Positions 30,371 through 33,499 of a DNA stretch of 41,758 nt are shown in pieces. This DNA comes from Bacillus cereus (lineage in GTDB: Bacteria; Bacillota; Bacilli; Bacillales; Bacillaceae_G): NCBI RefSeq assembly GCF_002584535.1, contig NZ_NUOT01000036.1, positions 1-41,758 on the forward strand. The letters run 5' to 3'. A model generated the notes under the pieces. The model had not been told where the DNA came from and ran no database searches. It saw only the letters and a program-made list of their open reading frames with translations. Position numbers and translations under genes: made by a program. Position 1 is the stretch's first letter. Each line of letters opens with the position of its first letter.

Positions 30371-30395
30371 AAAAAAGAGAGCTAATTTGCTCCCT
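30371..30395 (-). terminator. intrinsic terminator of the leftward XRE gene
   Basis: On the minus strand GGGAGC, AAATTA and GCTCTC (with a G-U pair) are followed by eight Ts. It lies directly after the stop of the repressor gene and also separates it from the convergent rep gene. Confidence 0.75.
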
Positions 30396-30742
30396 TACAA
30401 TAAATCCTTGTTTTTCATTAACATTTTCGAATAGACAGCAATATGTTTAGCATATTGCCCTTGCTCGCGTCCGTCTAGTCCGTTGTAGTCTCTTTGAATG
30501 TCACTCAATAGTAAATCTAACAAAGGATCATTCTGTTCGTTCTCGAAGCCGATAAGGGTGTCTATTGTTACGTTAAAAAATGATGCCAGTGTTTTTAAAC
30601 CTGCTACGTCAGGTTCGTAACGATCGGTTTCCCAATTTTTTAGTTGTCCACGCGTAATATTTGTTTTATCAGATAGTTGTTCTTGTGTTAGACCATAAGA
30701 TTTTCTTAAGTTTTTAATGTTTTGTCCGACTGTGTTTTTCAT
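30395..30742 (-). CDS. XRE-family repressor
   Basis: The 115-residue product has a classical N-terminal helix-turn-helix: IKNLRKSYGLTQEQLSDKTN, then RGQLKNWETDRYEPDVAGLK. A helical C-terminus (LLDLLLSDIQRDYNGLDGRE) is likely to be for dimerisation. It is convergent with rep and divergent from aimR, with the 493-bp regulatory region between. An extended -10 (TGGTATAGT) and the palindrome TACCATATTTGGTA just upstream suggest autoregulation (inference). Confidence 0.82.
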   Translation of the reverse strand: MKNTVGQNIKNLRKSYGLTQEQLSDKTNITRGQLKNWETDRYEPDVAGLKTLASFFNVTIDTLIGFENEQNDPLLDLLLSDIQRDYNGLDGREQGQYAKHIAVYSKMLMKNKDLL

Positions 30743-31235
30743 AGTTTAAAGTATAAATAGCAAAATATCACTATACCATATTTGGTACGTAACAAGACAT
30801 TTTATGTTATTTTGTCCTTAAAAAATTTATCTAAAAATAAACATAGAACAATTGTTCTGTAAGTGGTAAAATATTCATGTACTATCAAATCGTTAGTTGA
30901 TATGCAAAATTGCATACATGTTTAAATCTTGATTTATAGCGATAAAAAACTTTCTCAACAAATGTCTGGTGACCAAGTCATCAAAAATTAGAAAATTCGT
31001 GATAATATTTAGTTAACTAAATTGAACGAAAAAAAGACCCATATGAGCGTGTTCAAGAGGCGTCTGTCAAACTCTCTCTTGAACCGTTCCCTAACCATAG
31101 CTTAGGAAACACTTTGCTACATACGAGTCACATCTAAGTATAACACAAAAACACAATATTCTTTTCTCGTATTTTTGTTTCCAACTTGAAAAAAATGTTA
31201 GGACGCGGTTTGTTTTTTCAAGGAAGGAGAAATTC
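30743..31235. promoter_or_regulatory. intergenic control region between the repressor and aimR
   Basis: This 493-bp stretch has no convincing gene but many symmetrical elements: TACCATATTTGGTA (30774-30787), AGAACAATTGTTCT (30845-30858), TATGCAAAATTGCATA (30901-30916), and the perfect 16-bp palindrome ATTTAGTTAACTAAAT (31007-31022). A GTTCAAGAG/CTCTTGAAC hairpin (31051-31084) and a CTTGAAAAAA/TTTTTTCAAG hairpin touching the aimR ribosome site (31185-31222) follow. It is probably the core switch for lysogeny; the proteins that bind each element are unknown. Confidence 0.6.
30846..30857. promoter_or_regulatory. LexA/DinR SOS box GAAC-AATT-GTTC
   Basis: The site matches the Bacillus LexA consensus GAACnnnnGTTC exactly and is part of a perfect 14-bp palindrome. 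It lies about 100 bp upstream of the leftward repressor start. TTGTTC within it could be a leftward -35 box followed 16 bp later by TAAATT. It would link the repressor, or a rightward transcript, to host DNA damage. Confidence 0.6.
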
Positions 31236-32366
31236 ATGCAAGAAGTAATGAATCAATTATTAAACAAAATGGAGCATCTAGGATATTCAAGAAGAGGTTT
31301 TGCTGAAAAACTTAAAGTGAGTCGTGAAAAACTTAGAAGAGGACTTACATGTGAATATGAAATGGATGTAAATGTATTTTTTAATGCTATTGACCTTCTA
31401 TTTGAAAACAAAAAAGAAAAGAGACAAATTACAAGAGAATACTTTAGTAGATGTACTAGTATATCAAATATTGAAGTTGGTTTAATATATTGCCAGGTTC
31501 ATGGTGAGTACGATCTTATGAACCAACTCATAAGCGAGAATGAAAATAAAGCAAATTTAGGTATATTCTTCAGTGTCTATAAGCTTTTTAACAAAAGAAA
31601 TAACAACGAACTAAGAGGAAAAGAGCTTTATGATGAACTTAGCCACAAACGTTTTTCTTCTAATCCACATTGTCAGGTGTTAGTTAATATTTTATTCATG
31701 CTTTCTCTTGCTGATATGCCAAATAACAATGCAATTATTCAATATGTAGATGAAGTAGAACATAATTTAGCAAAACTGGAACAAGGATATATTAAGGATT
31801 ACTTACGTATGTTAGCTGATGAACGAAAAGCATACATGTACTTGTGGAGAGTGCAACTTGAGAAATGCCGGGATACATGTTATCAAATAATTAATTCATG
31901 TATAGATGTTCCAATTATTCAAGCAACTGCCTTTTGTTGTTTAGGGGAAAGTTATCAATTCGAAAATCCCACAAAATCAGAAGAATATATATTAAAGGCT
32001 ATTGAAAAGTTGGAAGAAGTCAATGTTCCCCTAAAATCTCAAAAATATGTCGCTTTTCAATCAACACTTGCACATGTACGCTTAAATTGTGAGATTAATA
32101 TTAAAGAGATTAATTTATCAGCCATCCACAAGAACGAAAAAGCAAGTTATGAATATAACTTCGGTAATCGTCAACTAGGATTATCGCTCTTTAAGGAAAT
32201 GGAAGTAGAGGGGTTTAGTCCTTTTCAACGTTTTTCATACAGTAAATGTATTGGCGATTTAGAAGGAATTAAACAAGCTTTGCTAGAATTTGAATTGGCA
32301 GGATTAAGTTTTTATGGACAGTTATGTAAGAACATTCTAATGAATAAAGGGGAAGTGCTACAATGA
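31236..32366 (+). CDS. aimR: arbitrium receptor AimR
   Basis: A 376-residue protein in the AimR size range. It has an N-terminal helix-turn-helix (RRGFAEKLKVSREKLRRGLT, residues 19-38) and thereafter only helical repeats of the TPR type. Examples are SISNIEVGLIYCQVHGEYDL near 76 and FCCLGESYQFENPTKSEEYI near 228. AimR binds DNA until a phage-encoded peptide, imported by the host oligopeptide system, binds its TPR groove and favours lysogeny. The decisive support is the following gene: a small secreted-peptide precursor starting within the aimR stop (ATGA). Rap/PlcR-type regulators are alternatives, but the N-terminal domain and phage context favour AimR. Confidence 0.85.
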   Translation: MQEVMNQLLNKMEHLGYSRRGFAEKLKVSREKLRRGLTCEYEMDVNVFFNAIDLLFENKKEKRQITREYFSRCTSISNIEVGLIYCQVHGEYDLMNQLISENENKANLGIFFSVYKLFNKRNNNELRGKELYDELSHKRFSSNPHCQVLVNILFMLSLADMPNNNAIIQYVDEVEHNLAKLEQGYIKDYLRMLADERKAYMYLWRVQLEKCRDTCYQIINSCIDVPIIQATAFCCLGESYQFENPTKSEEYILKAIEKLEEVNVPLKSQKYVAFQSTLAHVRLNCEINIKEINLSAIHKNEKASYEYNFGNRQLGLSLFKEMEVEGFSPFQRFSYSKCIGDLEGIKQALLEFELAGLSFYGQLCKNILMNKGEVLQ

Positions 32367-32491
32367 AAAAGAAATTAACTGCACTAGTATTATGTTTCGG
32401 TGTACTCGGATTTGGAGTATTTGGTAATGTAGAACAATTAGAAAATACAAACCCAGTTCAATATATGATAGCGGACCCGGGTGGCTCTTGA
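32363..32491 (+). CDS. aimP: arbitrium peptide precursor AimP
   Basis: A 42-residue ORF whose ATG overlaps the aimR stop (ATGA), with AGTGCTACA upstream and GGGGAAG further off. It opens MKKKLTALVLCFGVLGFGVF, a signal-peptide-like helix. A polar stretch rich in Asn, Glu and Gln follows, ending in MIADPGGS. In known arbitrium systems the mature peptide is the last 6 to 10 residues, so the candidate signal is ADPGGS or a slightly longer form. The exact cut cannot be read from sequence. Confidence 0.82.
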   Translation: MKKKLTALVLCFGVLGFGVFGNVEQLENTNPVQYMIADPGGS

Positions 32492-32520
32492 TTAATTAAA
32501 TATAGTTAATTTGCAAAAAG

Positions 32521-32546
32521 AAAGTCGTTACTTCGGTAGCGACTTT
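32521..32546 (+). terminator. stable UUCG hairpin after aimP
   Basis: AAAGTCGTTAC, TTCG and GTAGCGACTTT form an 11-bp stem with one G-U pair and a UUCG loop. No T-run follows, so it may be an attenuator or RNA-stabilising element rather than a strong terminator. Confidence 0.55.
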
Positions 32547-32561
32547 CAGTGCGTTTAAGGG

Positions 32562-32600
32562 GTGACACAAATAAAATGCCGAATCGTAAAACTGTGTCAC
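32562..32600 (+). promoter_or_regulatory. candidate AimR operator (GTGACACA-N23-TGTGTCAC)
   Basis: Two perfect 8-bp inverted arms (32562-32569 and 32593-32600) are 31 bp apart, three helical turns. The long spacer and the position just downstream of aimP and upstream of the next small gene match the layout described for AimR operators in SPbeta-like phages. The left arm overlaps a -35-like GTGACA. Confidence 0.6.
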
Positions 32601-32636
32601 TTACATATTTAATAAAAATTAGGGAGGAAAATTACT

Positions 32637-32795
32637 ATGATGAATCAAGGGGTTGCATTACAAACAGAGAAAGAAAGCAGTGTGGAGGAAAAGTTACATA
32701 TCATTTTAGAAAAAGCAGAGAACGGAGATCCACAGGCGATTGAAACGTTAGCAGAAATTAATCAAACGTTATTAGAAGGGGAATTTATTTTTTAA
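32637..32795 (+). CDS. small acidic protein in the aimX position
   Basis: The protein has 52 residues starting MMNQGVALQTEKESSVEEKL, with an excellent AGGGAGG site 9 nt upstream. It is acidic and helical, rich in Glu and Leu. It lies directly after the candidate AimR operator and is followed by a strong terminator, so it forms a compact transcription unit like aimX, the lysogeny-controlling product downstream of aimP in known arbitrium phages. Homology to a known aimX is not claimed. An overlapping 64-codon frame (32549) was rejected for lack of a ribosome site. Confidence 0.65.
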   Translation: MMNQGVALQTEKESSVEEKLHIILEKAENGDPQAIETLAEINQTLLEGEFIF

Positions 32796-32829
32796 GACCT
32801 AAAATAAAGGGGTGCTCCCATCCAATTTT

Positions 32830-32863
32830 AAAGCTGTCACTTCGGTGATGGCTTTTTGTTTGT
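32830..32863 (+). terminator. intrinsic terminator after the aimX-position gene
   Basis: AAAGCTGTCAC, TTCG and GTGATGGCTTT form an 11-bp stem with two G-U pairs, followed by TTTGTTTGTTT. It closes the arbitrium unit. Confidence 0.85.
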
Positions 32864-32939
32864 TTAGGATGTATAGATATTATGAAAAATAGTAAGAATG
32901 GTAGCTAATGTCATACAGGAATTTTCTGTTATCAAGGGA

Positions 32940-32979
32940 ATATGTTATATAGTACAAGCTGTATAACATATGTTATACT
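32940..32979 (+). promoter_or_regulatory. toxin-antitoxin promoter/operator
   Basis: A perfect 10-bp inverted repeat ATATGTTATA (32940-32949) and TATAACATAT (32962-32971) is directly followed by an extended -10 TGTTATACT (32971-32979), about 30 bp before the antitoxin start. This is the arrangement expected for autoregulation by an antitoxin or TA complex. Confidence 0.6.
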
Positions 32980-33009
32980 CAGTTTGATACACAAAGGGGG
33001 AATTGGATT

Positions 33010-33144
33010 ATGTTACGTATAAAAGATAATCCACTAATTAAAAACAATAACGATCAAAATGACAACATCATGATTCTCGACAGTGAAGTTTATGATTTCT
33101 GGAAAAGCGAGGAAGATGACCTGTATGACGACCTCATCGAATGA
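33010..33144 (+). CDS. probable antitoxin
   Basis: A 44-residue ORF, strongly acidic at its C-terminus (DFWKSEEDDLYDDLIE), with GGGGG 11 nt before ATG 33010. It ends 20 bases inside the toxin gene, the tight overlap usual for type II pairs. No DNA-binding domain is obvious; the acidic tail could occupy the toxin RNA groove. It is assigned as antitoxin by position and composition. Confidence 0.6.
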   Translation: MLRIKDNPLIKNNNDQNDNIMILDSEVYDFWKSEEDDLYDDLIE

Positions 33145-33499
33145 ACCGAATTTCACTAAGTGCATTGGAGAAATCTGGCTCATGAAGGTAGCTTTCATAG
33201 AAGACCCTTCTCGATTTAAACCTCGTCCTGTAGTAATAGCATCCGAAAATGAAGTGTATCCACTTGAAATTCAAGCGACTCCTATTACTACACAAGGGAC
33301 GAGAGATCCTTATGATATTAAGATTGAGGATTGGCGAGAAGCTGGACTGAGAGCTCCTTCTGTAGCTAGAACCTTCAAAACTTTCCCTACAGTAAAAGGG
33401 AAGTTAATTAGACCGTTAGGAAAATTGACACCAGAAGACTTACATAAGATATTACTAGCGTGCCAACGTAAACATAATATTCCTGGATTAGTAGATTAA
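33125..33499 (+). CDS. MazF/PemK-like endoribonuclease toxin
   Basis: A 124-residue protein with the family's opening strand GEIWLMKVAFIEDPSRFKPR followed by PVVIAS, a central ITTQGTRDPYDIKIEDWREA and the C-terminal VKGKLIRPLGKLTPEDLHKI. PemK/MazF enzymes cut mRNA when the antitoxin is lost. Beside a plasmid-type par locus this is a post-segregational killing module. ATG 33125 is chosen for its GAGGA site; the frame stays open upstream to 33083, inside the antitoxin gene. Confidence 0.82.
   Translation: MTTSSNEPNFTKCIGEIWLMKVAFIEDPSRFKPRPVVIASENEVYPLEIQATPITTQGTRDPYDIKIEDWREAGLRAPSVARTFKTFPTVKGKLIRPLGKLTPEDLHKILLACQRKHNIPGLVD

Follow-up and report, generated by a model that had tools for sequence, protein, structure and literature searches.

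A DPGGS-type arbitrium locus in a Bacillus cereus phage and a conserved structured RNA, a candidate small RNA gene, divergent from aimR

Arbitrium is a peptide messaging system of phages that guides the choice between killing the bacterium and dormancy. In SPbeta, the receptor AimR protects two 6-bp boxes that lie 3' of aimP and are separated by 25 bp, and its affinity is similar across box spacings of 23-28 bp (PMC6458997); by our count the SPbeta hairpin ends 14 nt before the known operator. Both the SPbeta and the phi3T AimR function as antiterminators at such a hairpin, an altered hairpin-operator distance abolished antitermination in phi3T, and the phi3T AimX is a 51-codon ORF whose product binds MazF (accessible part of PMC10769878). 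The peptides of the family differ among phages: Wbeta-type phages use EIKPGG/TIKPGG (excerpts of PMC8878798), while the phage-plasmid vB_BtS_B83, whose propeptide ends MADPGGSVG, assigns itself to arbitrium clade 7 of Stokar-Avihail et al. (excerpts of PMC6669507). A 2025 paper finds the DPG motif widespread in the peptides of AimR.

The locus described here lies in a stretch of 41,758 nt of Bacillus cereus DNA (hereafter the window), corresponding to positions 1-41,758 of the forward strand of contig NZ_NUOT01000036.1 (assembly GCF_002584535.1). The original prediction named this element a phage-plasmid. It is a phage, with genes for the large and small terminase subunits, portal, capsid, tape measure, tail, and endolysin; the plasmid half of the name is likely, based on profile matches to ParA, an FtsK/SpoIIIE-like protein, and Replic_Relax, and it stands without a terminal overlap, as the window ends share no exact sequence of 10-400 bases. 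A Pfam scan of 29 window proteins, a subset of the ORFs, turned up no integrase. The host element of the locus is taken to be a temperate Bacillus phage, probably of the phage-plasmid kind.

The receptor gene aimR (31236-32366, + strand) encodes the predicted protein of 376 aa, which as a whole exceeds the curated cut-offs of the AimR family, scoring 317.3 bits against the NCBIfam equivalog NF038310 (cut-off 70) and 91.1 bits against Pfam PF22871 (cut-off 26.7), in addition to 357 bits against phrog_1728. Of the HTH-plus-TPR receptor first proposed, the fold holds in the structure model, in which an HTH plus degenerate TPRs lies nearest to AimR structures: AimR chains top the structural comparison and NprR, PlcR, and Rap structures fall far below, with residues 203-328 poorly modelled. 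The HTH itself is not called by Pfam and is suggested by the AimR match and the model. A single-sequence search of solved structures with the window AimR returned no AimR and two weak matches to P450 enzymes (E 0.04). Among relatives, tblastn at E 1e-5 found none in the phage records, a search for which the AimR of phage SpaA1 is too distant, and the genome contig scans gave no relative. Two plasmid records matched, from Bacillus arachidis (about 41-42.5% identity) and Anoxybacillus (20.6%), and the viral-contig scans identified four contigs, L002 (86%), L003 (85%), and L006 and L007 (both 57%).

Two of the more distant loci deserve a separate mention. The protein P31 of phage SpaA1 (HE614281.1, L014 5172-6474), whose annotation says no more than XRE DNA-binding protein, scores as an AimR with 282 bits, and the unannotated ORF that follows it ends VEIKPGG, a Wbeta-type arbitrium peptide. 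The 217-kb Bacillus arachidis plasmid NZ_CP127373.1, typed as mobilizable, carries at L001 7962-9231 an AimR, an AimP-like ORF that is absent from the gene table and ends MRVDPGGG, and a hairpin after it.

Directly 3' of aimR, the gene aimP (32363-32491, + strand) starts with an ATG that overlaps the receptor stop codon as ATGA and encodes a 42-aa propeptide with the C-terminal end MIADPGGS, as in the original prediction; it has a hydrophobic segment near its N terminus and is a putative secreted precursor. The family searches proposed along with that prediction assign the receptor to AimR and the small ORF to phrog_2682 (E 3.5e-8, residues 2-42), and the aimR-aimP layout is further supported by the relatives of the DPGGS type, where aimP homologues of 41-47 codons lie at the identical overlap with aimR, starting with GTG in L015 and L025. 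Their ends align with that of the window: L002 and L003 have YMVDPGGS and YMMISDPGGS, L006 and L007 both have MTIQDPGGS, and contigs found via the operator pattern described below add TDPGGS, VDPGGS, and NDPGGS. Throughout this group the final five residues are invariant, and the position before them holds A, V, S, T, Q, or N. Contigs found via the RNA patterns carry propeptides ending in DPGGH, EPGGL, EPGGH, or EPGGY, and L107 ends EIKPGG. Since a variable residue precedes the fixed DPGGS, a hexapeptide whose first residue confers specificity is favoured, and the mature peptide is most likely ADPGGS, to judge from the aligned ends; a mature form longer than six residues, as initially suspected, would then be less likely.

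The predicted likeness to PGG-containing peptides of B. cereus-group phages is borne out by two printed cases, consulted in excerpt. B83 is a phage able to be a plasmid and resembles the window in that its AimR and AimP are encoded close to XRE regulators, its propeptide contains ADPGGS, and a small ORF follows aimP, whereas its peptide extends two residues further; the part of its account available to us mentions no operator, hairpin, or upstream RNA (PMC6669507). The Wbeta/J5a clade likewise has a PGG-containing AimP, but its peptide ends at PGG with no further residue (PMC8878798, in part); SpaA1, which is of this type, shares with the window the upstream RNA described below in addition to its EIKPGG peptide, and a SpaA1-type receptor (L107) has 19% identity to the window AimR. 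Because DPGG-type arbitrium peptides, including that of B83, are in print, the window pair taken by itself adds a member to an established type, and an AimR-AimP pair as such is ordinary by now.

Upstream of aimR and on the opposite strand, the window contains a conserved structured RNA (31029-31129, - strand), a candidate sRNA gene to which a DNA match in SpaA1 (76%) first pointed, at 31020-31150. It has the layout of a three-way junction, with a closing helix (GACUCGUA/UAUGGGUC) and two hairpins, followed by a U tract, and just before it lies the putative extended -10 element TGTTATACT (31137-31145, - strand), of the form TGnTATAnT that is nearly invariant in the alignment, a candidate for the sRNA's own promoter. 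The covariance model R1, which has the window among its sequences, scores the window element at 140 bits, and this copy folds with a z of -5.2 (0/200 shuffles as good). In an alignment of 25 sequences, 98.3% of the cells pair and 32 cells are changed on both sides versus 8.4 in shuffles (0/500 as high); the pairs that show a double change number 5, a value reached by 154/500 shuffles, and the count of further pair types is reached by 15/500. The letters fixed by the search patterns account for part of the invariance in the second helix and parts of the first, and the covarying third helix is free of them except at its foot. When diverged copies are included (29 distinct rows), 16 pairs show double changes versus 6.5 in shuffles (0/500 as high), in an alignment that is fitted to the covariance model and hence leans towards the structure. 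Moreover, the cells read on the RNA strand include 134 G-U and 2 A-C, so that the complementary strand would mispair. An RNA under selection is well supported by these data. Rfam 15 gives no match over the whole window at gathering and, for 30745-33100 at E up to 5, two weak matches only, neither of them in the element.

The distribution of the element was traced with two patterns. The first, AARGACCCATANNAGCGTG, has 77 occurrences across the examined loci, counting the window and SpaA1, and 16 of them carry the full element; a 17th, L060, has a truncated locus and came to light through the covariance model. AimR lies within the locus in 15 of these 17, while L042 stops at a contig end before aimR and L060 has AimR beside the element in the full record. 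The second, GTTTCCTAAGNNNNNGTTAGG, from another part of the element, occurs at 34 places (again with the window and SpaA1), comprising 27 elements, with a divergent AimR in 26 and one cut off (L042), and 7 unrelated sequences without any covariance-model hit at E up to 1. Additional diverged copies, likewise next to aimR, are detected by the model in L022 and in the single contig that is both L007 and L025. Overall, the element is divergent to the adjoining aimR in 30/30 records with a readable flank (window and SpaA1 included); these are not 30 independent cases, because many resemble one another (the 28 sequences used for the alignment comprise 25 distinct ones). Twelve contigs with AimR loci (L001-L003, L006, L007, L015-L025) were fetched without using the element: L006 holds no upstream sequence, and the element is present in 10 of the remaining 11, the exception being the B. 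arachidis plasmid. In the phage collection the element matches SpaA1 only (two records), and in the plasmid collection nothing. The AimR of element-bearing loci ranges down to 19% identity to that of the window.

Second, diverged copies of the RNA occur in SpaA1 (L014 3260-3382, + strand), divergent to a replication-protein gene, and in G013 (L114 1140-1257, - strand), divergent to an ORF that by eye resembles a replication gene. Past the RNA, as seen from aimR, the window encodes an XRE-family regulator (30395-30742, - strand; HTH_19 and HTH_3, with an RstR-family match below its cut-off) that may be CI-like. An XRE-like ORF on the same strand, 255-290 nt beyond the RNA, is present in 13 of the 28 places examined; in the remaining 15 the leftward gene is integrase-like or other, as named by eye, or none is listed.

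These observations can be read in two ways. In the first, which we rate at about an even chance, many related Bacillus phage arbitrium loci hold an undescribed three-way-junction sRNA of about 100 nt, divergent from aimR and kept as AimR and the peptide change, which would bring RNA-based control into the choice between lysis and lysogeny and perhaps, via the second copies, into phage-plasmid replication. In the second, a serious contender that we hold to be somewhat less probable, the element is the 5' leader of a leftward transcript or acts at the DNA level, for instance as an operator or a replication signal, and is not a separate sRNA. The XRE-like ORF recurring on the same strand agrees with this, as does the position of the second copies beside the replication gene of SpaA1 and the similar ORF of G013; however, the leftward gene is different or unlisted in the other places, and since the neighbour varies, a leader of the leftward gene loses weight. 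The closing helix that runs into a U tract after an extended -10 also speaks against this second reading, as does the excess of G-U over A-C cells, with the mispairing expected on the other strand. As for the function of a separate sRNA, its best duplexes with neighbouring sequence, taken over about 0.9 kb to one side and 1.9 kb to the other with shorter flanks for L021 and L056, fall at differing places across 12 loci, and no target is therefore proposed. UACAU is a motif tied to MazF, and the idea of the RNA as a MazF decoy was dropped, as by eye no UACAU is found on the window RNA strand. In the literature on arbitrium/AimR, phage-encoded small RNAs, and B. cereus prophages, sampled as titles, abstract openings, and some passages mostly from outside subscription papers, no upstream RNA is described.

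Downstream of aimP, the window contains a 12-bp hairpin (32520-32547, + strand), a candidate regulated terminator, in a stretch that folds with a z of -5.3 (0/200 shuffles as good); it is present in relatives, and the consensus terminator scan, which needs a T run, does not list it. After a further 15 nt follows the candidate AimR operator GTGACACA-23-TGTGTCAC (32562-32600), which contains TGACAC-25-GTGTCA (32563-32599), that is, two boxes about 25 bp apart as in described arbitrium loci. When the gap between aimP and the candidate aimX is shuffled with free spacing, 30/300 shuffles reach the inverted-repeat score of the window, and the candidate operator thus rests on conservation and architecture. 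The left half, written as the pattern GTGCGTTTAAGGRRTGACA from the window, L002, L003, and L007, identifies 11 viral contigs (the three pattern sources, the already known L006, and seven new ones), and in 11/11 an AimR with 57-86% identity to that of the window and an AimP ending DPGGS lie just upstream. The right arm, outside the pattern, is complementary in at least 6/7 positions in 9/9 distinct sequences, window included, with a spacing of 25 in six and 26 in three, and varies along with the left arm (GTGACAC/GTGTCAC versus GTGACAA/TTGTCAC). The exact 8-23-8 repeat is found in six stretches, with AimR in five and, in L026, without AimR in its stretch. A chance origin was tested and set aside: the shuffles reach the repeat score at free spacing, but the operator pattern, which was composed with the site already known, has one site in the window versus 0.03 expected, and the nine distinct sequences keep the spacing at 25-26. 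In the DPGGH/EPGGL-type loci, which have a hairpin at the equivalent place, in the SpaA1 type, and on the B. arachidis plasmid, the like search gave no similarly perfect repeat of long spacing beyond the hairpin.

Beyond the operator lies a candidate aimX, a 52-codon ORF (32637-32795, + strand) recognised by its position and by similar small ORFs in relatives (74% identity in L002, 65% in L003, 26-33% in three others; a weak conservation overall), and then a predicted intrinsic terminator (32830-32855, + strand; consensus scan, z -4.0 for the stretch). The place of the ORF matches that of the 51-codon phi3T aimX, whereas its product has no MazE-like match and no family match of note among the Pfam, NCBIfam, and PHROG profiles. 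Just past it, a MazF/PemK-like gene (33083-33499, + strand; profile matches) adjoins the candidate aimX as a copy carried by the phage itself, in contrast to phi3T, in which AimX acts on the host MazF; L002 and L003 have in its place, as the next long ORF, one that looks ParA-like by eye. A near-perfect 13-bp inverted repeat, ATATGTTATATAG/CTGTATAACATAT (32940-32971), precedes the MazF-like gene and is possibly its operator.

The locus shares with SPbeta and phi3T the AimR fold, the order aimR-aimP-hairpin-operator-aimX (operator and aimX as candidates here), the 6-bp boxes 25 bp apart, and a hairpin 14-15 nt before the operator (available parts of PMC6458997, PMC9232636, and PMC10769878). It differs from both in its DPGGS-type rather than RGA-type peptide and in its boxes (TGACAC versus ATCACT), and from SPbeta in the stop-codon overlap that replaces a short aimR-aimP gap and in the upstream RNA, an element absent from SPbeta. 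Because the 6-25-6 operator and the hairpin distance closely resemble those of SPbeta, antitermination by AimR is likely here too. On the observed family membership of AimR and AimP, their gene overlap, the hairpin, the operator architecture, and their conservation, a model can be built that borrows antitermination, the peptide form, and the effect on lysogeny from SPbeta and phi3T. Specifically, peptide-free AimR would bind the long-spaced operator 3' of the aimP hairpin and let RNA polymerase read through the hairpin into the candidate aimX, favouring lysis. AimP would leave the cell and be processed to a short peptide from its C terminus, most likely ADPGGS, which would then be taken up again; AimR with bound peptide would leave the operator, so that the hairpin would terminate the transcript and lysogeny would be favoured. 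We hold with high confidence that this is an arbitrium locus of such a kind, with a separate conserved RNA beside it.

Alternatively, AimR may be a classical activator or repressor at the long-spaced operator, with the aimP hairpin as an ordinary constitutive terminator. The original arbitrium model was one of activation and is still given in the accessible text of a 2026 review, and an operator alone is silent on the mode of action; this reading is nonetheless unlikely, as no sigma-70-like site is listed by the scan in the interval from the operator to the small ORF and the hairpin-operator distance is near that of SPbeta, where antitermination has been shown. A receptor of another RRNPP subfamily (Rap, NprR, PlcR) with a plasmid role in place of lysis-lysogeny control, a grouping that the original prediction named as its counter-case and that the plasmid genes of the element and the AimR homologue of the B. 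arachidis plasmid could suggest, is highly improbable, for Pfam and NCBIfam match AimR models only and the structural comparison, with NprR, PlcR, and Rap far under AimR, points the same way.

For the arbitrium family, xDPGGS represents one more dialect, and the relatives with receptors of 70-86% identity and a single difference within the final six peptide residues are a ready set for specificity tests. By analogy, the operator and hairpin suggest that the antitermination by AimR described in SPbeta and phi3T extends to the DPGGS branch. Lastly, the upstream RNA is the part that matters most, as a conserved and testable candidate RNA gene in a system described until now in terms of three parts (aimR, aimP, and aimX).
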